This document shows, piece after piece, positions 5,920 to 56,129 of a stretch of DNA of 64,000 nt. Below the pieces are notes generated by a model. That model worked only from the letters and a program-made list of their open reading frames with translations. It had not been told where the DNA came from and searched no databases. Each line of letters starts with the position of its first letter. The stretch's first letter is position 1. Made by a program: the position numbers and the translations under genes. This DNA is from Hippasteria phrygiana (taxonomy: Eukaryota; Echinodermata; Asteroidea; Valvatida; Goniasteridae), in NCBI GenBank assembly GCA_037893225.1, contig JAZGUH010000185.1, forward strand, positions 2,728,001 to 2,792,000. The letters are read 5' to 3'.

Positions 5920-6081
5920 GCACAAAAACCTCGCTTAGGTTACCAGCCAAAACTCCACGTGCTGGTATGCTAAGCAAACAGCTAAATACCAGTCACAAGC
6001 AATATACCTCACATGGAGTTTTGGCTGGTAACCTGATTTTACTAAGCAAGGTTTTTTTTGTGCTTAAGCAAACGTTTGTGC
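5920..6081. mobile_element. foldback element with 'CTTAAGCA' ends, copy 1
   Basis: Contains GGTTACCAGCCAAAACTCCA and, inverted, TGGAGTTTTGGCTGGTAACC, with AAGCACAAAAACCTCGCTTA opposite CTAAGCAAGG. A related copy is at 8957-9165. It abuts the TTAA MITE at 6086. Confidence 0.6.
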
Positions 6082-6085
6082 TTAA

Positions 6086-6686
6086 AGGGACACATTGCCT
6101 TCAAATGTCATGACATTTTGCTGTTTGGAAATGTTCCTTATCTTTTATAAGAGTTGTTCATGCAAAAAAACACGTATAATGTGTTGCAATTAGTGAGTAG
6201 TGATTACAAAACAAAACATTTGCCTCTGACCCCTGACATCTGACCCGCGAAACATAGACTTATTTCCAGTAGTAAATACCACTGTCTAAATAATGCGCAA
6301 AATACGCTGTAAGAGTCTTTAGGCTGGCGCGGCAGCCAGTGGCCTTGTAAACCTATGAGATGATCGCAAGGTACCATTCTCTACCTCGCGACACATATCG
6401 CCAGTGCTGCGCGCCGTGCCACAGTACATCAAAATGGATCAACAGAACGTACTTCAACCAGCTGCGACTGAAACTACGACTGGTGAACACGGTCCGCCAT
6501 TTTGTGGAGTCAAAAATTTGGTTCTACAAAATGGCGGACCGGTATTTGTCACGAAATTAAACAAAAAACACGCAATTTGAAGGGATAGTTATGTGAATCT
6601 TTATATTCTACTTTTAAAAAAGCTTCCCAACCATATCCATTTCAGTTGTATAGCCCAAATCGCAAAATCCAAAGCAATGTGTCCCT
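6086..6686 (+). mobile_element. TTAA-site MITE, copy 1
   Basis: Flanked by TTAA at 6082-6085 and 6687-6690. Ends are AGGGACACATTGC and GCAATGTGTCCCT. The interior carries a second inverted pair (GCCATTTTGTGGAGTC and its partner in ACAAAATGGC). Near-identical copies lie at 50675-51291 (+) and 55313-55915 (-). TTAA target duplication is the mark of piggyBac-type transposases; no transposase is encoded. Confidence 0.85.
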
Positions 6687-6690
6687 TTAA

Positions 6691-7838
6691 GCAGCTTTAT
6701 GAATATTAAAAGTCCCTTCACTCCCTTGGTTCGGTTGTTTCTTGTCGGTGAATTTCTTTGGGAATTTTCAGTAGACCTATAGGTGAGAATTACGCACCAT
6801 AATGAAACACTCAAATACCCAAAATGATTATAACCACAGACTGAGAAACAACAGAACCGGTTATGACCGCACGCACCCAAGATCGGCGAAGGCAATACAT
6901 TTTGGGCATGCATGCTATGTACAACATGTACAACCGTGCATCCCCCCAGGGTTGTAATTATGTTAATGAGGGTAATTCCGCTCTGAACGACCGTGGGATG
7001 ATGAGTGGACCAGATGCGCGCTGCATGCTGTCACGGCTGTTGTGCCGTGTTGAATCTGCGAACGTGGGAAATCCCCCTCACTTGGAACGCAGCCAAACCT
7101 ATAAAAACAAGTCATGGCCAGTGTCAAAAAAAGAAGGTTCTGTTAATTATGATAAACCTTCCTCCATGGATAAACGCAAGCAATGCAAGAAAACTTACAC
7201 CCCCAAGGACTGCAAAATGCATTTTAGGGAATGATTTAAACATCAGGGTTAACAATGTCGTGCATGCAGCGCGCGAAGTAATGCAGCTTTTCACATGACT
7301 CGCGCTTGAGCATGCGCGTGAGGGGATTTTTTAGAAAGTGGGGAATCCCCGGGCGGGGAATACCCGTGTACATGTATACGCGATTCAAGTCTGATGTTGT
7401 GCGGTAAGCCAGATGAATGTCAAGCCACGCCCCTCCAATGCGATACGGACAATGCTGAATCTCCTTTAATTAACGCGTAACGGAAGACATCATTAATGCT
7501 GATTAATTAGTGCAGTGGTGCTCACAATGGTTACAAAAGCACGGTACAGAAGGGCATTGACATCGGCACGTGCGGTTACTGGGCCATTGGTTTGTTTTTT
7601 CTGGTTCGAACTGTCGGTTGAACTCATCATAATTTATTATTCGCAGATCTTCACATTGCTGGGAATCCCCCACTGCAAAAACAATCATCCCTCAGCTTGT
7701 TCTAGTGCCGTTCTTCACTCGTCCAATACTCGTTTTCTGGAGCGTTCTGCATGAGTTTGACTGGGCCTTATGGATTTCATCGTGTCTGGTTTAGTGGTTG
7801 ATGGACAGGGGTTGAGATTCCACAGCTCGGTTCTCACC
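6691..7838. other. upstream region of the bZIP gene
   Basis: Two overlapping open frames of about 100-120 codons (6863-7298) have no recognisable domain and I do not call them. The last few hundred bases before 7839 would hold the bZIP 5' UTR and promoter. At least two short upstream ATGs (for example at 7752 and 7769) precede the chosen start. Confidence 0.4.
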
Positions 7839-31900: not shown

Positions 31901-33804
31901 TTTTTGTTTCCGTCCGTAAAACCCTTGACACTTGTAAAAAAAATATTCTTGCAAAAACGCAGGCTGGAGTTTGGTTTCTTATCAGAACGTTATGTACCCG
32001 TAAATGATCTTGATACAACAGGCGCATGTAAACAAATGTTGATCGAGCAGTCCATAATATCGATCGCCACACGTAAAACACAGGCGTAATGCGCGGCATG
32101 CAGTTGCAGCTGACGTGTGAAAAACTTGATCGCCGAGTATCGAATATTCGAATATTCGGTCAAATGCAGTTTCGAATAATCGAATACTGAATTATTCGAA
32201 AATGAACAGCCCTAGAAGTAGGCAGATTCACGTGAACCGGCGTTGGCGGCGCTATTTGCGGTACCCAATCTTCTGTCAGCACTGTGACCGGCTTATAATT
32301 TGTTTTTTTTTAGTTTTTGATCATTTATTGGCAAATAATTGGTGTTTGTTAATTGTTACTATTTTAAATGACTCCTACAATTATATTTATATTGATAACA
32401 AATTGATATGAAATAAATGAGGCTCACATTTTCAATTAAAAAATGTAGCAATTGGCAATATGGTCACAACTTTTAAACTAAAATTGGCCTCCAAAATGAC
32501 CCCAAATTTTATTCAACAAAAATCCATAACTTTGCACAGGGTTAACCTTTCATGACCATTGACCCCTCATATTATTTCCATTTTTTTTACTCCTTCCAGT
32601 GATATAATATTTAAAAGGATTGAAGCAACTTGAAATTTTCCTGAATCTGCCTACTAGAAGGCAAAGTGTGCGATCTACTCGGAATTAATTAAAACTGTTT
32701 GAAGACCCAATAAAACATCTGATTTCACCCTTAAAACGGCCACCAAAATACTAGATACGCCACCTGAGGAACAAGTGGAGTTCCATGATTAAGATGGATG
32801 TACTAAGGTTCTCTTACCGTCCTGATAAGTAAGACTAAGAGGCACGCACCCGCAGCGATATATCGGCTTGTTTTTTTACATACATTTTCAAACGGGACCT
32901 GACTACTCAACTGGACTTAATACATTACAGTGTGATGTTGGACTCCAGATCCTGCGCACGCATAATGCACCGAAAGAGTACAAGTTACAATGTAGGTTCG
33001 CAGTACATGTACATGTCGATATCGGTACAAGGCTGCACGCATGACTCCTTTTCCTTCATGAAACAGTCTCCGGGAAGCCGCGCGGTGCATTATTATGCGT
33101 GTGGAAGGTCTGGAGTTTTAAGGGTGAAATCAGATGTTTTTATTGGGTCTTCAAACAGTTTTAATTAATTCCGAGTAGATCGCACACTTTGCCTTGGAGT
33201 GGACCCTACCGCCAGATCATGTCAAAATGTAAAAAAAAGGGATTTAGAGGGTCCAAGTTAGCCTACTCGGACTAAAATAAACAATGCATTTTTATTATTG
33301 TGACGTCTCAACCAGGCGGTAGGGGCCTATTTGCGATATGCCCTGGCATGCCAGGGTGCTCATCATGCATGTCATGCTCATGAATGTAGGCCTGGCCTTG
33401 GGATGTGTTGTTTCATGGAGGTAGGAAACCTACCTCCATGGTTGTTTCCAGCGTGGCCACTCAACTCATCGAATTTGAAATTCCCAAGATTCATCCAGTA
33501 AAATTCCCAAGAATTCCCAAGGCTATGGAAAACACTGTACAAATGCATTTAACAGATCAGAGCGCCGGAATAAGCACTTTGCGCATGTGCAATCCATATT
33601 TTCCAACCAAAATTCCCAAGATCTTGGGAAAAATCCCAAGGAGTGGCCACATACAGTGGTCGTTTCCCGTCAAACAAAAACTTTACTGGGTAATTTTGAA
33701 TGAATTTTCAAAAAGGAGCGGGATCTGAAAAACATTTTCGACTCACAAAGTAGCTTCAGGTCATCACCATTCACATCACCACGGCCTCCTCCCTTCGTTT
33801 CCAT
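19740..33804 (-). CDS. PRDM15: PR-domain zinc finger protein, PRDM15 orthologue (8 coding exons)
   Basis: Exons in transcript order: 33804-33747, 30033-29786, 29509-29278, 27851-25918, 24712-24386, 22973-22818, 21595-21443 and 19955-19740. Every junction has GT/AG and the phases close (1,0,1,0,0,0,0) to a 1107-aa protein ending in TGA. Exons 1-2 give WCIDCLKCHGPDCP, like human PRDM15 WCEDC..., then RTMFGPLE, like RTQFGPFE. Exons 2-3 form the PR/SET-related domain (about residues 55-170) with NQNLIVYQY, YFTVIRDIPEGE and LRVWYAPNYA. Exon 4 has a Ser/Thr- and Lys/Arg-rich linker, then fingers; in all about 19 C2H2-type fingers lie between residues 469 and 1065, three of them completed across exon junctions. 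A family member is a nuclear DNA-binding regulator of signalling genes in early embryos; PR domains of this subgroup usually lack proven methyltransferase activity. Introns hold many transposons. Confidence 0.9.
20269..20771 (+). mobile_element. MITE family 'GAGCAAGTTCGG', copy 2
   Basis: Ends GAGCAAGTTCGGGTGCTGCTG and CCCAACCGAACTTGCTC. It sits in the last intron of PRDM15, in the opposite orientation to that gene. Confidence 0.88.
20930..21260. repeat. degenerate 'AATCCTCCAAAATCCTC' satellite element
   Basis: More than ten imperfect copies of a 20-25 bp unit containing CCTCCAAAATCCTC, ending in the inverted GAGGATTTTTGGAGGATTTAG. The same units occur between TTAA sites at 36859-37135 and 40961-41146. 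Confidence 0.7.
21443..21595 (-). CDS. PRDM15: PRDM15 exon 7
   Basis: Acceptor TACCCTCAG|AAGAAACTG and donor CGTAAG|gtgagc. It codes one full finger (CNICGRVF..HQLVH) and most of the next (CTVCDKKFSTQHFL), matching human CSVCDKKYVTEYML. Confidence 0.88.
21900..22080 (+). repeat. interspersed repeat shared with 23825-24240
   Basis: GGAAGTCACC.AATACAAGGCTAA, CCCTTACGGTTTTCCTGGGTC and CAGACCTATAGACCC-like segments recur at 23825-24240; fragments are also at 40240-40320 and, inverted, at 45600-45715. The 23825-24240 copy carries extra internal sequence. Confidence 0.65.
22480..22640 (-). repeat. tRNA-derived SINE, copy with head and tail
   Basis: Minus strand: B box GGTTCGAATCC (22593-22603), then a tail CACAGGCTCTCTAAGAGCGC, then CATACATTACGTCGGGAAA and an A-rich end. 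The tail recurs at 24790-25030, 37195-37440 and 43995-44045. The A-box part is missing or degenerate. Confidence 0.65.
22630..22684 (+). repeat. short AT satellite
   Basis: Four to five units of TTTATATGTTA(A/T). Confidence 0.7.
22818..22973 (-). CDS. PRDM15: PRDM15 exon 6
   Basis: Acceptor TTCCCATCCAG|ATATGC and donor ACTAAT|gtgagt. It begins ICNKSFKSSCLRAH; with CK from exon 5 this makes a finger with 11 rather than 12 residues between Cys and His. A second, canonical finger follows (CPHCDRAFSQRGNF). Confidence 0.88.
23060..23270 (-). repeat. interspersed repeat, inverted copy of 49290-49510
   Basis: ACATGTCTTGTAACTCGGAAGTCGGGAGGCAAAA and CTGTATTTAAAGACAATGAT are found in inverse orientation at 49290-49510. 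Poly-C and poly-A runs lie just to the right (23305-23335). Confidence 0.6.
24386..24712 (-). CDS. PRDM15: PRDM15 exon 5
   Basis: Acceptor TTGTCCAG|ACCTACCAC and donor TGCAAA|gtgagt, 109 codons. TYH completes the last finger of exon 4; three fingers follow. CDVCGKVFKSSGELVSH and HTGRKSHVCEVCGKTF align with human CEICGRIFNSIGNLERH and HTGVKSHACEQCGKSF, the clearest diagnostic for PRDM15 in the finger array. Confidence 0.9.
24790..25030. repeat. SINE-tail foldback
   Basis: An inverse SINE tail (GAGTGTATGAGGCACTCTATG), a decayed tRNA-like head (TTGAACTCACAATC) and then a forward tail (CATACAGTGCTTCATACACT, CCCTGATGCAAATTCC) lie in order, so two tails face each other. Confidence 0.55.
25122..25585. 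repeat. GACTTG satellite, two blocks
   Basis: Blocks at 25122-25245 and 25445-25585 are built from imperfect GACTTG(G)GACTTGACTTG units, with about 200 bp of unique-looking sequence between them. This lies in PRDM15 intron 4. Confidence 0.75.
25918..27851 (-). CDS. PRDM15: PRDM15 exon 4 (linker and 11 fingers)
   Basis: Acceptor TTTCGTGCAG|ATATCC (phase 1) and donor TTGCAA|gtaagc. The first ~290 residues form a Ser/Thr-rich then Lys/Arg-rich linker without known domains. Eleven C2H2-type fingers follow, from CSECSLIL to CPLCKCHF; the eighth reads CKNCDAVY..HNC, a C2HC form. The exon is 1934 bp, unusually long next to the 153-327 bp finger exons downstream, which suggests intron loss or a retained ancestral block. 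Confidence 0.9.
28549..29045. mobile_element. MITE 'TAAGCCTAGTTTCCATATCG'
   Basis: Left end TAAGCCTAGTTTCCATATCG and right end CGATATGGAAACCAGGCTTTA are inverted partners, 497 bp apart. GC-rich interior. It lies in PRDM15 intron 3. No second copy was found in the window. Confidence 0.7.
29116..29224 (-). repeat. repeat 'TTAACCCTCCTATA', inverted copy of 46670-46772
   Basis: GATAGGCTGTGATAGTTATAA, AGGAGGGTTAA and ACACAAACTGTGAGAGTTGG appear in inverse orientation at 46670-46772. One boundary is TTAA in both. Confidence 0.65.
29278..29509 (-). CDS. PRDM15: PRDM15 exon 3 (C-terminal half of PR domain)
   Basis: Acceptor GTAATCTGCAG|TTCTTC and donor AAATG|gtacgt (phase 1). It encodes FFKKDGSF, SNWMTLVAV, NQNLIVYQY, YFTVIRDIPEGE and LRVWYAPNYA, which line up residue by residue with human PRDM15 (CNWMMLV, HQNLTAYQH, YFTTSRDIPPGTE, LRVWYAAFYA). 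Confidence 0.93.
29786..30033 (-). CDS. PRDM15: PRDM15 exon 2 (zinc-knuckle-like start and N-terminal half of PR domain)
   Basis: Acceptor TCTGTTGTAG|GGTGCA and donor CTGAAG|gtcagt. CIDCLKCHGPDCPHH matches the N-terminal Cys cluster of human PRDM15 (CEDCSQYHDSECPE). SLPRILDLQTI and PRRTMFGPLE mark the start of the PR domain. Confidence 0.9.
30114..31118. mobile_element. TA-flanked DNA transposon, about 1 kb, 'CCGTAATTTTC' ends
   Basis: Flanked by TA at 30112-30113 and 31119-31120. Left CCGTAATTTTCGGAATAGGC and right GCCTAAATCCCTGAAAATTACGG are inverted, with CGGCTTATAC next to both ends. TA target duplication suggests a Tc1/mariner/pogo-type mobiliser. Internal frames of up to 104 codons have no recognised transposase motif. 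It is inserted in PRDM15 intron 1. Confidence 0.85.
31350..31490. repeat. small inverted repeat
   Basis: GCAAGTTTAAACTTGCGCAAG at 31350 and CTTGCGCAAGTTTAAACTTGCGC at 31461 are self-complementary and also complementary to each other. Confidence 0.55.
31702..32214. mobile_element. hAT-type MITE 'TAGGGCTGT', copy 2
   Basis: Ends TAGGGCTGT and ACAGCCCTA. The left flank is GAAGGCAA (31694-31701). The right flank starts GAAG, is split by the next MITE and resumes as GAAGGCAA at 32656-32663, so the 8-bp duplication is perfect once the later insertion is removed. Confidence 0.88.
32218..32653. mobile_element. MITE 'TAGGCAGATTC' nested at the hAT boundary
   Basis: Left TAGGCAGATTCACGTGAA and right TTTTCCTGAATCTGCCTA are inverted. 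Flanks are CTAGAAG on both sides (about 7 bp). It entered the right target duplication of the hAT MITE at 31702-32214. Confidence 0.75.
33413..33438. mobile_element. micro-palindrome 'ATGGAGGTAGG', copy A
   Basis: ATGGAGGTAGG-AAA-CCTACCTCCAT (25 bp). Flanks are TGTTGTTTC on the left and GGTTGTTTC on the right, 8 of 9 matching. See the findings for the family. Confidence 0.7.
33440..33660. repeat. 'TTCCCAAGATTC' repeat element
   Basis: Contains AATTCCCAAGAATTCCCAAG on the left and AATTCCCAAGATCTTGGGAA on the right. Related text is found at 56150-56290 and 57620-57740 (inverted). Its boundaries are unclear. Confidence 0.55.
33747..33804 (-). CDS. PRDM15: PRDM15 exon 1 (start codon)
   Basis: ATG at 33804, 19 codons rich in Gly and Asp (METKGGGRGDVNGDDLKLL), then T|gtgagt, a strong donor. 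It ends in phase 1, exactly what exon 2 needs, and the split codon becomes TGG, giving LLWCIDC as in human ..FIWCEDC. I searched the upstream interval and no other donor of the right phase with an in-frame ATG was found. Confidence 0.8.
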
Positions 33805-34317
33805 GATTAACGTTAAATTTTAAAACTTCTCCGACATAAACTCTTTTCTAATAACGTTGTTGTTGGCTTACAAAAATACAATCATGGAGCAGCCGGTGTT
33901 ACTTGAAATAAAGCCATTGCAAAAAAAGACTCCCAGTGCACAGTACAACATAATATACACTCAGTGTGGCTTGATTGTACCCACAGGAGAAAAATAATGT
34001 AAAGAAATGGCCTTAATGATGTGGATCTAAAGTAAGTGACACTTTTGGGGAAATTTGCTTGTATACGCAAAAACAAACATGGTTTAAACATGAAGAATGC
34101 CAGCTGCGGGTAAACCTAAATTTTATACAACACCGGTTTATCGATAGCAATAGAGGGCGCTGTAACGTTATGCCGTTTTTGTCACCGGGACTTGGCGCGC
34201 GCGCGGGCCGGGCTCAGTCATCCGAAAGTTCATGATGCAATTATTATTTGGAGGGATCAAGTTCACGATTTCACCAAGATTTTAACAAGCCCCTTACTTT
34301 TGGGTTAGCTTTTTATA

Positions 34318-34500
34318 TGTTTTGTTTTTGTTTTGTTTTGTTTTGTTTTGTTTTGTTTTGTTTTATTTTGTTTTGTTTTGTTTTGTTTTGTTTTGTTTTG
34401 TTTTGTTTTGTTTTGTTTTGTTTTGTTTTGTTTTGTTTTGTTTTGTTTTGTTTTGTTTTGTTTTGTTTTGTTTTGTTTTGTTTGTTTGTTTGTTTTTTTT
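34318..34500 (+). repeat. (TTTTG)n microsatellite
   Basis: About 32 almost perfect TTTTG units with one TTTTA variant, ending in TTTG/T runs. Open frames across it in several phases are artefacts. Confidence 0.98.
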
Positions 34501-36290
34501 TGCTTAAAGTTTTGTTTTTGTTTGTTTTTAGGGGCATACAAACAAGCGCTGGAGCGATATATGCAAAACCTGCGCAGAAGGAATGAGAAAGAAGGAATGG
34601 TGCATGCAAAATTTAAATATTTATTAGCCACTGCCACGAGTATTATTCGCCCCCCCCCCCCCCCCCCCCCAAAAAAAATATATATAATTTCTTTGGGGGC
34701 ATGCTCCACACGCCTGGCCCCAGTTTATTTGAATAAAACTTTAGTTTAAGAACTAAGTTTTGAACTATAATTCCGGTATCCAGTAACAACAAATTGAACA
34801 GAGGCGGAGCCTATTTTAATGTAATTTTTTTTTTTTTTGGGGGGGGGGGCGACTCTCTTGCTCTGAGCTGCCTTTTAGTTTGGGGTTTTGTTTTGTTTTG
34901 TTTTGTTTCGTTTGGGGAGGGGGAGGGGAGGGGGGGGGGTACAGCTGGTGGTGTACAAACTTATAGCTCAGCCACTCATGCATGGCCTCAGCCGAAAGTT
35001 TGGTTTGTACATTCTGGTTCCGTCTGTCAAATTATTGGGGCGTAAACAAGTTTTTGCACTTACATTTTTCATGATATTCAAAGCCAGAACGATAATGGAT
35101 GGATCGGGAACCAGTCTAGATTTGTGTGCAGCCGTAGTAAACAGCCTTTCCCATTTTTTTCCCTGAATGCTGGACGAATCACCATAGGGACATTATTTAC
35201 TTTTTGTATTTTATTTTATTTTACAAATACATTCAAACACGAATCGATAATGTGTTTTGTTTATTTAGACTTGCGTAACGCCCTAGGCTTATCAAAATGA
35301 TAGTGACAGAGGAATATAATACATTTACCAACGACTGCACGGAGACTATATTTATAGTCAGTTCGTTCGGTCTGGTAACCAGACTGGCATTCCCGCTCAA
35401 ATTTGATGGTCGCCTTTTTTGTACACTTTATCGAGAAACTTGCTACTTTCGAGGCGACGAGGGTCGAAGCTGTATTTTTACTATTAATTCAGTTAATGAA
35501 ATGTAAGTCATAGGCGCTACCTACTGTTGATGTTGGTTGTTGTTTTACTTTAGTTTGTTAGTTGTACTTGTACTCCTAGCCCCACCAGTGTGGCTGGCGG
35601 ATTTGACATCGGGCTGATCCTTAGCCACACGTCCTACCCATATGTTTGTGTGGTGAGAACTTCAACAATTCGTGCGGTGGGGTAGCGCTATCTGGACCGC
35701 GGTTTTAACGGTCTGGCTGTGTTCTCTACCTTCTTAACTATTCCAAACTGCTAGCGGCTTGTCATCTTACTCACCATTTTCCGAAATATTGGACATTAAA
35801 CTTGGACTCCATAGTCTTGCGTGCTAACGATTTCAACTGGTATCAGCCATTTTAAAATGACGTCACTGGGTTCGAAACGGCTTGCCGACGGCTGTTTGAT
35901 GAGAGCACAGCTTATCACGAAATTCGCGCGAGATGTTCCACTGAAATCGTGATAAGCTAGTATCTACAAAAAGTGTCTCTCATTGGTTTATTTGTGGAAA
36001 TACATGTAGATACATGTACTATGTATCGGTCAGATCAGCCAACCAATAAAGAGTTTAGATCACAAGCTTTAAAATTATATTGATACCAAGTTTGTTATGA
36101 TTGCATTCAAAATGGCAATGTACACGAATTGAAAAATAACCAATCTTATGAAGAAAAACAAAATTCCGGTAATTATAAGCATGGAGGAAGGATATAGAGT
36201 GAGTTACTTTACTAAATCTATTTTTTAGACATTTTATAAAGAAGGCATAGAACCAGACTAAACACATTATGGTAGAAGTTCCTAAGAACA
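34501..36290. other. low-complexity and unassigned sequence
   Basis: Includes a poly-C run near 34650-34669, G-runs near 34840 and 34920-34940, and a 50-bp hairpin AGCTTATCACGA..TCGTGATAAGCT at 35907-35957. No gene recognised. Confidence 0.45.
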
Positions 36291-36505: not shown

Positions 36506-39500
36506 ATGCCTCCAGATCTGAAGAAGAAGCCCATGGTCTTGCAGTGTGAGTGGCAGGGCTGTGAATTGATCAGGAACCGAATGGAAGCCTTCTTACTTCA
36601 CATCAACGAGCACGTTAATTCCGTTCTGCCAGAGGGTGTCACCGCCGAAAACTACAAAAACTTTTTAATAGTGCCATCAACGGGTACGCACTTTGCGAGA
36701 ATTTGGTTGTACAGATTAGGGCTGTTCGTTTTCGAATAATGTAGTATTTAATTATTCGCAGCTGGGTTTTTCACACGTCTGCTGCAACTGCATGCTGTAA
36801 AAAATTGCACCGGTAAAAAATTGCACGTAAAGCACGCCAGTGTGGCGACTGATATTAACCCTAACCCCCTAGACCCTTTTTGCTAGGAACCATCCTCAAT
36901 CCTCCAAAATCCTCCGATTACCCTGCCCCAAAAAATGCATTCATCCTCAATCCTCCAAAATCCTCATGTGCTTTAAACACCGTTCATCCTCAATCCTCCA
37001 AAATCCTCTGCTTGAAACACCATTCATCCTCAATCCTCAAAAATCCTCTTTTTAAAAAATACCATTCATCCTCAATCCTTCAAAAACCTCAAAAACTGCA
37101 AGGAGGATTTTGGAGGATTGAGGTGGGTTAGAGTTGAGGAGTGCCCGATCAACAATTTTTTTACATATACTGTACAGTAATTATTTTTAAAGTAAATTAG
37201 AACAGATTTTCTCTTTTGCCCATTTCCCGACGTAATATATGAAGCACTAACTGTATGCTCAGTGCTTTCCGAGAGCCTGTGTAAAAAAAAAATCACAGTA
37301 AGCCTGTGAATTATTTTTTAACACAGGCTTTCGGAAAGCATACCGTGCTTCATATATTACGTTGGGAGAGGGCAAAAGAGAAAATCTCTGTTCTAATTTA
37401 CATCATCATTCCCGATGCAAATTCCTTCTTCACATTATTGTATAAGTGTCAAGGGTTTTACGGACGGGAACAATAAACCTCCGTCTACAAAAAGTTACCT
37501 GAGAAAAAAATGCAGCATTTGACACTGCTAAGCCCCGTAACTTTTAAAATGGCATCGGAGTAATAATTTTTGTTCTCGAATATTCAAAGCAGCAGAAAGG
37601 TATTCGAATATTCAGTTGTGGGATTCAGCATGCACACCAAATGACAAGTTGAGAAAATAATGCAGATTAGTACTGTAATGGTAGTTGGTACCCATCTTTT
37701 TATACGTTTACATATAAAAAGATGGGTACCATTTCAGTACTAACCTGCATTATTTTAAGCATTCAGATTGAAACTAATCATCTTGGTTTTTGATCATTAG
37801 TAAAGCTATGTCCGTAAAGATTCATTTCCAAAAAAAAAAAAAAACCTCGGATATTACAACTTTGGAATATAATTTTTGAAAATCCTTTCTTTGAACAAAT
37901 TTGGTTTTCTTTCCAATGACAGATGTGCTTTACTGTGAATGGGCGGAATGTAACTTTGAAACGACCGACGGTGAAGTGACGTTAGTTCGGCACATATACT
38001 TCCACGCCTATCACGCCAAGATCAAATGGTGGGCGACTCAGGAGCAGTCTAAGAACAACATTGACCAATGCGTTCTGGGAGCCATGACGCGCAACATGAT
38101 TCCCGAGCTGCCGGAGGGATTCGTCTGCTACTGGAAAGATTGTGAGGTAATGACAGGAACCATGTCATAAACATCCAGTTCAAGTTAATCACACGCATAA
38201 ATTTTGGGTATAATCGGTGCAATATATGCAGATATATTATTCCGTGAATTTCTGTACGAAGTACAGAAAATCCGTACTGGTTGGCAGACCAGTACGGATT
38301 TTCCGTACTTCGTACAAAAATTCACGAACAAATACCGAAGTATGAATTTCTGTTGATAAATACGGATTTTGTGAAATCCGGCCATAATAATGTTTTGTCG
38401 TGCATCTTATGCTGTTATACTGCGTGTGTACTGGCTTATTGCGACACCAACTGAACGGATGCAACTTTAGCTTTGAAAATAAAAAAAAATAAGGAGACGG
38501 TCCATCCAGCGAATATTCAGCATGGTCAGGAAGAACTCAAATGAGTACAGACCTAGTCTGGGTACATCAACTCTTTCTGACTTATCAGAGGGTTTCCAGT
38601 CAAGCCAAGGGATATCAGTGTTAACAAATAACCTTCGCCAACAAACCCCTCACTATAAACCCTTTGCGTACGGAAGACGTCCTATGCCGCAAAAAAAAAA
38701 GTGCCACCAGGCCGGATGACGCCGTTTGCCGCTGTTTGTGCAGTTTCAATCCATTGTTGGATTATTGTGTATGTTACGCTTGACTGCACAAGCACATTGT
38801 GGCCATTTCGCTTGGCTGCCAGAGCCGCCGCGACACCCCGACGTCTACCGTAAAAAAAAACGTACTCAAGGGGTTAATGCAAAAATGGCCTACAAGAAGC
38901 AGAAAAATAACCTTTTTGCCCTTTTTTGATTAGATCTATGGAAGTATGCCGAATTTCAACCTGTACTTTCAGGAAACACCATACGTTTGATTTTCAAATT
39001 TTGCTACTTCACGCCAATTTTTGTAGTAACAGGTCACATCATATCTTAAATACGATATGAAGCTTGGCATGGTGGGTACGATAAGAGAAAGACTGAGGTT
39101 GCGGGTAACACATTAATGGCTTAATTGAGTTACTCATCCTGGTTCTTTTCAGAACCACACATCTGCCTAGAAGAGATTTATTTCACATGGTGTCACCGGC
39201 AATCTCTGTCTTTCTCACATATATATCTTCATGTCGTATGAATCCCATTGCATGGCCCTCATAAGAAGTGAGTTTTAAAAGCCCACCACAGCTTTTAGGA
39301 TTGTGTGTCTGCCAGGCTTGTCAAGCCCTGAACATTGTTGTAAATAAGTGATCACCTTGTGTTTTGCTTTACTTGCAGTTTTTCACAGACAACGCAGAGC
39401 ACTTCTACCGTCATGCCGACAATCACGGCTTAATCGAGGATCCGGTGGTGGTCAATGGGAAAGAGACATTCCCCTGCTGTTGGGAAGGTTAGTGTGTTTT

Positions 39501-50250: not shown

Positions 50251-50674
50251 CATATAATGGCACATAGCATGTAATGGCACACTGCATACAGAAGTGCTCG
50301 TAAATCATGGTGGAATCATACACAGCGTGTCCGAAATGCGCGTTTTTGTTACGGCTATTAACCGTAGCGTGGCAACAGCAAAACCAAAGACGTAGCGGCA
50401 AATAGCCAAGTCTGAAATGACCGTATTTACATTTGTGCAGTGCATGTACCTGTTTGGAAACTGTCTAAGATTTAGAATGTCACATGATGTTCAACAGATG
50501 CTGTGATTGGCCCAGGCTTGTAAACAGCGATAGGTCAGATTCAGAATGTCATCTGATGTTACGATTGGCTTCATGCCATGACCCCCACAGCTAAAAACAG
50601 GTACAATGTATTTGTTTGTGGACAGGGCACGCTGCATGAATATTTCCCCAAAGTCTTGATAAATAATCACTTAA

Positions 50675-51291
50675 AGGGACACATTGCCTTCAAATGTCAT
50701 GAAATTTTGCTGTTTGGAAATGTTCCTTATCTTTTATAAGAGTTGTTCATGCAAAAAAGCACGTATAATGTGTTGTAATTAGTGAGTAGTGATTACAAAG
50801 CAAAAAATTTGCCTCTGACATCTGACCTGCGAAACATCGACTTATTTCCAGTAGTAAATACCACCATGGAGGAAGGAATCTATATTCCTTCCTCCATAAT
50901 ACCACCGTCTAAATAATGCGCAAAATACGCTGTAAGAGTCTTTAGGCTGGGGCCGCAGCCAGTGGCCTTGTAAACCTATCAGATGATTGCCAGGTACCAT
51001 TCTCTACCTCGCGACATATCGCCAGTGCCACAGTACATATGGATCAACAGAACGTACTTCAACCAGCTGCGACTGGAAATACGACTGGTGAACACGGTCC
51101 GCCATTTTGTGGAGTCAAAAATTTGGTTCTACAAAATGGCGGACCGTTATTTGTCACGAAATTAAACAAAAACCACGCAATTTGAAGGGATAGTTATGTG
51201 AATCTTTATATACTACTTTTAAAAAAGCTTCCCAACCATATCAATTTCAGTTTTATAGCCCAAATCGCAAAATCCAAAGCAATGTGTCCCT
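50675..51291 (+). mobile_element. TTAA-site MITE, copy 2
   Basis: TTAA at 50671-50674 and 51292-51295; ends AGGGACACATTGC and GCAATGTGTCCCT. It differs from copy 1 mainly by a micro-palindrome insertion at about 50863-50894. Confidence 0.9.
50863..50894. mobile_element. micro-palindrome 'ATGGAGGAAGGAA', copy B, inside the TTAA MITE
   Basis: A 32-bp palindrome starting ATGGAGGAAGGAATC and ending GATTCC-type inverse TTCCTTCCTCCAT, flanked on both sides by AATACCACC. The sister MITEs at 6086-6686 and 55313-55915 carry a single AATACCAC(C/T) here, so this is an insertion with a 9-bp target duplication. Confidence 0.88.
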
Positions 51292-51613
51292 TTAAATACA
51301 CCCAGTCTTTGTTTCCCATGTATTCATCATTGTTTTGGTACTGCTGATTACATTTGACTGTTCTGTTACTACACAAAGGATTGAGAACAGGTAGAGGGAA
51401 AACAAGGTCAAGTAGGGTGGACATGCATCACTCTTAATTAATGAATAAACATATACATGTATTATTAAAGAATTTATGTCCATGATGGGTCACTCTAGGG
51501 GTCAATATGCAATTGGTGGTAGGATTGTTTTTATCAATACAACATCCCAGATTTAGAATGGGGCACCCCACCTCGATGAAAGGCAATGGTTGACAATGTG
51601 TTTAAGGGGCAAC

Positions 51614-54890: not shown

Positions 54891-55245
54891 GAGAACGCAG
54901 ATATCAGCCAGCTTCCAGAATGATTGAAACCACGTCCGCATTACAGCGCCACCATTGTCAGCAAAAGACTGGTTCGCTGTCCTTGTAGTCTTGGTTCAAG
55001 ACGTCGTTGTACACGTTGTTATAATACGCGATCATAGCTATCATCGATGAACCAATCGCGCGCGGTGCGAACAGCTTGTCATTTTTCTTGAACACCGAGT
55101 TCGTTAACAGTTTTCCCTTTTTTTACAAATTAACCCCAACAGTCCCAAATCCTCAAATTTCAACATTATTTTTCACACACCCTTGGGAGTTAGGGTTAAT
55201 AACTATCACATGTGATATCTTTTCATGCGCGATCGATTCGTCGAT

Positions 55246-55309
55246 TATAGCATGGAGGTAGCTACCTCCATGATTATAGCATGGAGGAAACCTCTCCATT
55301 CTCCATGCT
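55246..55309. mobile_element. micro-palindromes 'ATGGAGG', copies C and D in tandem
   Basis: Copy C is the perfect 20-bp palindrome ATGGAGGTAGCTACCTCCAT, flanked by GATTATAGC on both sides (perfect 9-bp repeat). Copy D follows the right GATTATAGC at once: ATGGAGGAAACC..TTCTCCAT, an imperfect palindrome whose right flank does not match. The TTAA MITE starts directly after. Confidence 0.82.
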
Positions 55310-55312
55310 TAA

Positions 55313-55915
55313 AGGTACACATTGCTTTGGATTTTGCGATTTGGGCTATAAAACTGAAATGGATATGGTTGGGAAGCTTTTTTTAAAGTAGAATATAAAG
55401 ATTCACATAACTATCCTTTCAAATTGCGTGGTTTTTGTTTAATTTCGTGACAAATAACGGTCCGCCATTTTGTAGAACCAAATTTTTGACTCCACAAAAT
55501 GGCGGACTGTGTTCACCAGTCGTATTTCCAGTCGCATCTGGTTGAAGTACGTTCTGTTGATCCATTTTGATGTACTGTGGCACGGCGCGCAGCACTGGCG
55601 ATAATGTGTCGAGAGGTAGAGAATTGTACCTGGCGACCATCTGATAGGTTCACATGGCCACTGGCTGCGGCGCCAGCCTAAAGACTCTTACAGCGTATTT
55701 TGCGCAATATTTAGACGGTGGTATTTAGTACTGGAAATACGTCTATGTATCGCGGGTCAGATGTCAGGGGTAAGCGGCCAATATTTTTGTTTTGTAATCA
55801 CTACTCACTAATTACAACACATTATACGTGTTTTTTTGCATGAACAACTCTTATAAAAGATAAGGAACATTTCCAAACAGCAAAATTTCATGACATTTGA
55901 AGGCAATGTGTCCCT
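55313..55915 (-). mobile_element. TTAA-site MITE, copy 3
   Basis: TTAA at 55309-55312 and 55916-55919. Inverted relative to copies 1 and 2; one end has AGGTACACATTGC (two changes), the other is perfect. Confidence 0.88.
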
Positions 55916-56129
55916 TTAAACCAAGACTCCTTTTTGGCGCCTGACCCTTGTACCCGTGTTTACGTTTGTATGTAAAACTTTTTTATCAAATGGTTTATTA
56001 TGAATACAGAAAAAATACTGCATCTGCCAGGAAAAAAGCTGCACGGCAGGTTCTTTTAAACACTGGGACTTTTGGTATTTTTTTAGTATCAATCAGACGT
56101 GCGATCGCGAGGGCGCACTACTGCGAAGC

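Follow-up and report, generated by a model that had tools for sequence, protein, structure and literature searches.

Short palindromes with 7-bp target duplications in Hippasteria phrygiana as probable excision scars of a P-type transposon

The stretch of DNA considered here, termed the window, comprises 64,000 nucleotides of a Hippasteria phrygiana contig (C185). Its reading frames are animal-like and include zinc fingers (Pfam-confirmed) and a frame recognised by eye, which we take to be histone H2A; a long simple repeat at 34305-34590 reads as an FCFVLFCFVLFCF frame. The window also contains three related TTAA MITE copies. One of these (50670-51295, forward strand, delimited by a similarity comparison in which it matched positions 70-695 of the query 50601-51350) carries a short insert, while the sister copies at 6081-6690 (forward strand, 86.8%) and 55309-55919 (reverse strand, 85.7%) are without it; the earlier note was thus correct that the filled and the empty site lie together in the window.

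The insert is a real inverted repeat at 50866-50897, which reads ATGGAGGAAGGAAT, CTAT and ATTCCTTCCTCCAT in that order and is flanked on both sides by AATACCACC. It had been described as a 32-bp perfect palindrome with a 9-bp target duplication, and both descriptions need correction. The arms are only 14 bp each and surround the 4-base centre CTAT, and because this centre is not self-complementary, the palindrome is not perfect. Comparison with copies elsewhere in the genome gives a unit of the form C-ATGG...CCAT-G with a duplication of 7 bp; the match at this site reaches 9 bp because the bases adjoining the duplication agree by coincidence, the unit here ending in A instead of G. The probable excision scar (scar 1) therefore occupies 34 bp at 50865-50898 on the forward strand, where the putative fused stubs are CATGGAGGAAGGAAT and CTATATTCCTTCCTCCATA and the terminal G reads A. 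It lies between a left copy (50858-50864) and a right copy (50899-50905) of ATACCAC, both on the forward strand, and the sister MITEs have the empty site.

Scar 1 is not alone in the window. A sequence-blind scan for palindromes of up to 80 bp, with arms of at least 7 bases and flanks matching at 8 or more of 9 bases, returned three, all with ATGGAGG ends (33415, 50866 and 55252), while the same scan of five Markov-shuffled windows returned none. A second scan covered 306,381 bases, made up of the window and 34 other stretches mostly picked for holding a copy; it found 17 palindromes, every one belonging to this ATGGAGG-ended family, against 0 in 1,225,524 shuffled bases. Probable scar 2 (33407-33447, forward strand) consists of CATGGAGGTAGGAAACCTACCTCCATG at 33414-33440 between two copies of GTTGTTT, and probable scar 3 (55244-55279, forward strand) of CATGGAGGTAGCTACCTCCATG at 55251-55272 between two copies of ATTATAG. 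In tandem to scar 3 lies a probable second, degenerate scar, CATGGAGGAAACCTCTCCATTCTCCATG (55280-55307, forward strand), whose right duplication is imperfect by eye (CTTAAAG versus ATTATAG, 5/7); the pair at 55244-55307 shares ATTATAG and abuts the edge of a TTAA MITE. Probable scar 4 (7151-7175, reverse strand) is one-armed, with CTTCCTCCATG at 7158-7168 between two copies of GATAAAC. A solo end, CATGGAGGAAGGATATAGA (36180-36198, forward strand), may be a stub or a broken element end, and neither a partner within the window nor a duplication was found for it. A search of the window for elements of up to 9 kb with these ends and a perfect 7-bp duplication returned only the three palindromes; a dozen loose end pairs, with flanks of 8-10 bp and one or two mismatches, were taken for chance. 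Other strong inverted repeats, with unrelated ends, are present at 37686-37731 (19-bp arms) and 38266-38303 (16-bp arms).

The earlier note had proposed a search of the genome for short palindromes with the same ends, and a test of their flanks for 9-bp repeats. The search was productive: the strict pattern ATGGAGGWAG-N0-20-CTWCCTCCAT, which covers sites of up to 42 bp and does not require the terminal C and G, occurs at 2,420 sites in the 944,056,580 bases of the host genome, while the reversed pattern occurs at 0. Flanks were read at the 35 genome sites that came first among the matches listed, two of which (L005 and L006) are apparently one locus seen twice. The test found a repeat of another length. 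A perfect 9-bp repeat is present at only 2/35 sites, so the refuting outcome named in the earlier note (no 9-bp repeats at other copies) holds almost literally, but a perfect 7-bp repeat, placed one base outside ATGG/CCAT, is present at 23/35 (28/35 if one mismatch is allowed). The two positions beside the 7-bp duplication agree in 6/35 sites each. With the repeat starting one base out and the outer positions rarely agreeing, the unit is therefore CATGGAGG...CCTCCATG; its left C is present in 33 of the 35 sites and its right G in 32, ATGG and CCAT being fixed by the search pattern. Seven of the 35 sites have, in the expected register, no 7-bp repeat even with one mismatch allowed. L005 and L006 have no flanking repeat, while at L019 and L124 the repeat is present in a shifted register.

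Background was estimated from 92 matches to the pattern in prokaryote and viral records, none of which has a perfect 7-bp duplication and two of which have one with at most one mismatch. When ends are considered singly, the 7-mer preceding CATGGAGG recurs within 45 bp in 63 of 104 cases (37 stretches, each palindrome counting twice) and does not in 41, while for five altered motifs the preceding 7-mer is repeated in 0/44. A chance origin is ruled out by the shuffled windows, the reversed-pattern control and the 92 background sites. The 26 perfect duplications (23 from the genome and three from the window) reveal a palindromic target preference near GTnnnAC that leans to TTnGTnnnACnAA: G is found at position 1 in 12, T at position 2 in 22, A at position 6 in 21 and C at position 7 in 16. 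The preference extends outside the duplication, with T at -2 in 19 of these sites and A at +3 in 16.

Centres vary for the most part. Among the copies with perfect duplications 25 of 26 centres are distinct, as are 37 among the 50 matches listed, where GGATCC and GGATATCC recur five times each. The commonest products among those listed are CATGGAGGAAGGATCCTTCCTCCATG and the form with GGATATCC (5/50 each), which are joins of the Drosophila P kind, at AT and ATAT; the recurrence is explicable by microhomology, and limited copying would also explain it. Of the 50 sites listed, forty are explicable as a pair of stubs from one of nine repeat families with no filler, while filler of 1-15 bases is needed in the other ten. 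Microhomology at the 40 filler-free junctions is 0 in 11, 1 in 13, 2 in 10 and 4 in 6, whereas a random-trimming model with the same ends gives zero microhomology in 65% of joins. Numbers drop steeply with length, from about 2,420 sites of up to 42 bp to 82 of 43-73 bp; where the terminal C and G are required, there are 183 sites at 35-42 bp and 82 at 43-73 bp. Among the 50 listed of these 82 longer sites, read by eye, ten consist of two scars with one common 7-mer, and nine of a pair of stubs plus filler.

To gauge stub length, 47 scars were chosen by hand and read from either side, and the tally was restricted to reads with at least 17 matching bases. There are 28 distinct reads that match at least 17 bases of two repeat families, and twelve of these extend to 21 nt, after which the bases are unlike; L117 provides another 21-nt stub. 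As the F1 and F2 strings are themselves 21 nt long, it is the unlike bases beyond them, not the count, that support a limit of 21 nt, and both this test and that of the junctions are partly circular, because the repeat families (F1-F8) were read by eye from the same listings. Set against a stagger of 17 nt, long stubs are present and some reach 21 nt (base 22 of F1 and F2 being unseen). The stagger would thus be about 21 nt rather than 17 if intact ends continue past 21, and slight gap-filling synthesis before joining could also lengthen the stubs.

Incomplete and compound forms accompany the simple palindromes. Perfect duplications also flank scars that are wholly or mostly one-armed, which are found at 7151-7175 of the window and in L007, L016, L117, L124 and L125. 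Tandem units with a common 7-mer make up at least 10 of the 82 sites at 43-73 bp and are also found at 55244-55307 of the window and in L131, which suggests repeated hits on a single site. Such repeated use may combine a preference for nearby sites with an old duplication that is still a good target; P elements favour nearby sites, according to a title cited in PMC7776569. A triple tandem scar lies at C312:1140556-1140640, and at C40:2237591-2237668 several CATGGAGG units abut or overlap without a 7-bp spacer. A second MITE-like repeat, with ends CCGGTGTCATGCC by eye, lies between copies of GTTCTCC at L117:4294-5322; GTTCTCC flanks CATGGAGG scars as well, so one target may have served two kinds of element.

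The earlier note had also suggested looking for long elements with the same ends and a MULE-type transposase. A long element with the same ends is present at L129:5946-8059: it is 2,114 bp long, its ends match at 30/32 bases and it has the 7-bp duplication ATGTAAG on both sides. As to a transposase, no Pfam match was obtained in the two open frames tried. By eye, the L129 element has a relative with an internal deletion, the 73-bp copy at C188:467758. P-type transposase domains are present in the genome, where PF12017 (the P transposase HTH family) has 55 matches. The one frame scanned, a 780-aa P-type transposase frame at L132:1677-4016 (C854), combines the HTH with both RNase H parts, the GTP-binding insert and the THAP9 C-terminus; C1079 carries an HTH match with the same score. 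No CATGGAGG ends lie within the 5 kb examined near the L132 gene, a tblastn search with 120 P transposases against the window and the other stretches gave no match outside L132, which was itself omitted from the tabulation, and no element among the loci examined combined a pair of CATGGAGG ends with a P transposase. The proposed assignment of these ends to a P gene draws on the duplication length, the target motif, the CAT start and the long stubs. Features of the P superfamily found here are a 7-8-bp duplication, a palindromic GT...AC target that extends past the duplication, and ends starting CA(T).

Taken together, we consider it probable (about 0.85) that the palindrome marks where a P-type cut-and-paste transposon, with terminal inverted repeats starting CATGGAGG, was excised and the site repaired. 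The element would have landed in the MITE, duplicating 7 bp. On departure, each element end would be cut by the transposase on its 3′ strand, with the other strand severed well within the element, and a long single-stranded piece of either terminal repeat would stay behind at the donor site as a stub. These stubs would then be joined, often at self-complementary microhomologies (AT, ATAT, CATG) and sometimes with filler, and the outcome would be a duplication, a stub, an inverted stub and a second duplication. We infer that the enzyme was a P-superfamily transposase, that its stagger was about 21 nt and that the joining was polymerase-theta-like.

Several other explanations account for part of these data. 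The insert might be an ultrashort MITE, a palindrome of 22-42 bp that is mobilised in trans and makes 7-bp duplications. The thousands of copies, the target duplications at most sites read and the two centres that recur five times each among the 50 listed would suit such an element. A MITE should nevertheless have a shared body, yet most centres are distinct (25/26 and 37/50 listed), and it should have both terminal repeats, yet one-armed copies with perfect 7-bp duplications exist. A 20-bp unit would probably also be too short to pair two ends, and known P-type transposases use internal binding sites: that of Galileo is at +63 to +80 (PMC3688188), and Drosophila P needs internal sequence, according to a title cited in PMC7776569. 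We regard this explanation as very unlikely, and the kindred idea of a mobile hairpin, raised in the earlier note, is contradicted by the diversity of centres, the one-armed copies and the fall in number with length. The same note had offered the scar of a larger element, which comes close to the evidence in all but the manner of its origin, namely excision and end joining and not deletion in place. In-place deletion, in which aborted gap repair pared resident elements to their ends, is compatible with the existence of longer relatives (the 73-bp copy at C188:467758 and the 2.1-kb L129 element) and with the discussion of incomplete gap repair for P-type elements in PMC4168063. It predicts a broad range of sizes, however, and the distribution (counted to 73 bp) is concentrated at or below 42 bp; the probability left to it is again very small.

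Scars of a non-P transposase superfamily that also makes a long staggered cut are unlikely, and yet they are the least improbable of these alternatives. They would be in keeping with the failure to find a P gene linked to these ends and with stubs that reach 21 nt, not 17; on the other hand, the 7-bp GTnnnAC-like duplications and CAT-starting ends match P relatives, and a long stagger is said to set P apart from other cut-and-paste transposons (PMC7776569). The family-wide data also dispose of the remaining suggestions. Like the elements proposed here, Mutator-like elements (MULEs) are DNA transposons with target duplications, which in their case are of about 9 bp; the duplication here is 7 bp in the genome copies, which leaves the link to Mutator unsupported and rules out the MULE reading. 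Palindromes are prone to mis-assembly, but an assembly artefact, or the capture of a hairpin during repair, is contradicted by the family as a whole: it has one kind of end, most of the sites read bear direct duplications of exactly 7 bp, and shuffled sequence gave 0 occurrences. Such a reading has next to no probability.

If the palindromes are excision scars of a P-type element, they are abundant. Ten further scars were found in 240,404 bases, not counting L006, which repeats L005. One of the ten, in L124, proved to be the bait, and another stands in tandem with its own bait. Eight independent scars in this length correspond to about 33 per Mb and about 3x10^4 per genome, an estimate that may be too high because each stretch was chosen for holding a palindrome. 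A full-text literature search for ATGGAGGAAGG gave no transposon title among the matches listed. Searches combining CATGGAGG with transposons or inverted repeats gave, among the matches listed, titles on Tc1-like, piggyBac or plant transposons and none on P elements or palindromic scars, and no report of genome-wide P-type scars was found in titles or abstract openings on short palindromic insertions, 7-/9-bp duplications or excision footprints. The excision products of P are known from experiments in flies, and here the same signature would stand for natural events, thousands of them, in the genome of another animal; the length of the stagger, the rules of end-joining junctions and the re-use of targets would therefore become measurable by counting sequence. 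We give about even odds to the broadest form of this proposal: that there are tens of thousands of natural P-like scars, left by a transposase that cuts about 21 nt inside its ends, that imprecise repair of the donor is a major fate and the 7-bp site is re-used, and that the scars preserve, like fossils, the geometry of cutting and the course of microhomology-mediated end joining in a lineage of wild animals. Annotators of repeats should also be aware that a short palindrome with a target duplication may be a scar, not an element.

Comparison with known members of the P superfamily highlights both similarities and differences. Galileo of Drosophila shares the 7-bp duplications and a palindromic target, GTAnTAC, that extends past the duplication, while its terminal repeats are very long and internally repeated and those found here are about 32 bp in the one long copy (PMC4168063, PMC2775673); the word 'footprint' is absent from the Galileo paper PMC4168063. 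The terminal repeats of zebrafish Pdre2/THAP9 also start with CAT (CATACCTG), and its excision has been demonstrated by assay; it differs in its 8-bp duplication and its repeat sequence, and excision by zfTHAP9 in the assays left larger flanking deletions (PMC10983969). The product architecture is the same as that of the P element of Drosophila melanogaster, whose transposase makes a staggered cut, on one strand at the element's end and on the other 17 nt further in, which leaves 3′ tails of 17 nt (PMC7776569, PMC2895639). Its excision products consist of a duplication, a stub, AT or TA microhomology, an inverted stub and a duplication, and one-armed products and products with filler are described as well (PMC2895639); all of these have counterparts here, and the P ends, which start CATGATG (PMC2895639), share the initial CATG of CATGGAGG. 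Drosophila P makes an 8-bp duplication and leaves 17-nt stubs in products that were laboratory events (PMC2895639), whereas the H. phrygiana scars have 7-bp duplications and stubs of up to about 21 nt and are natural and numerous; it is possibly in the number of natural scars, and in stubs that exceed the 17 nt of Drosophila P, that they are new.
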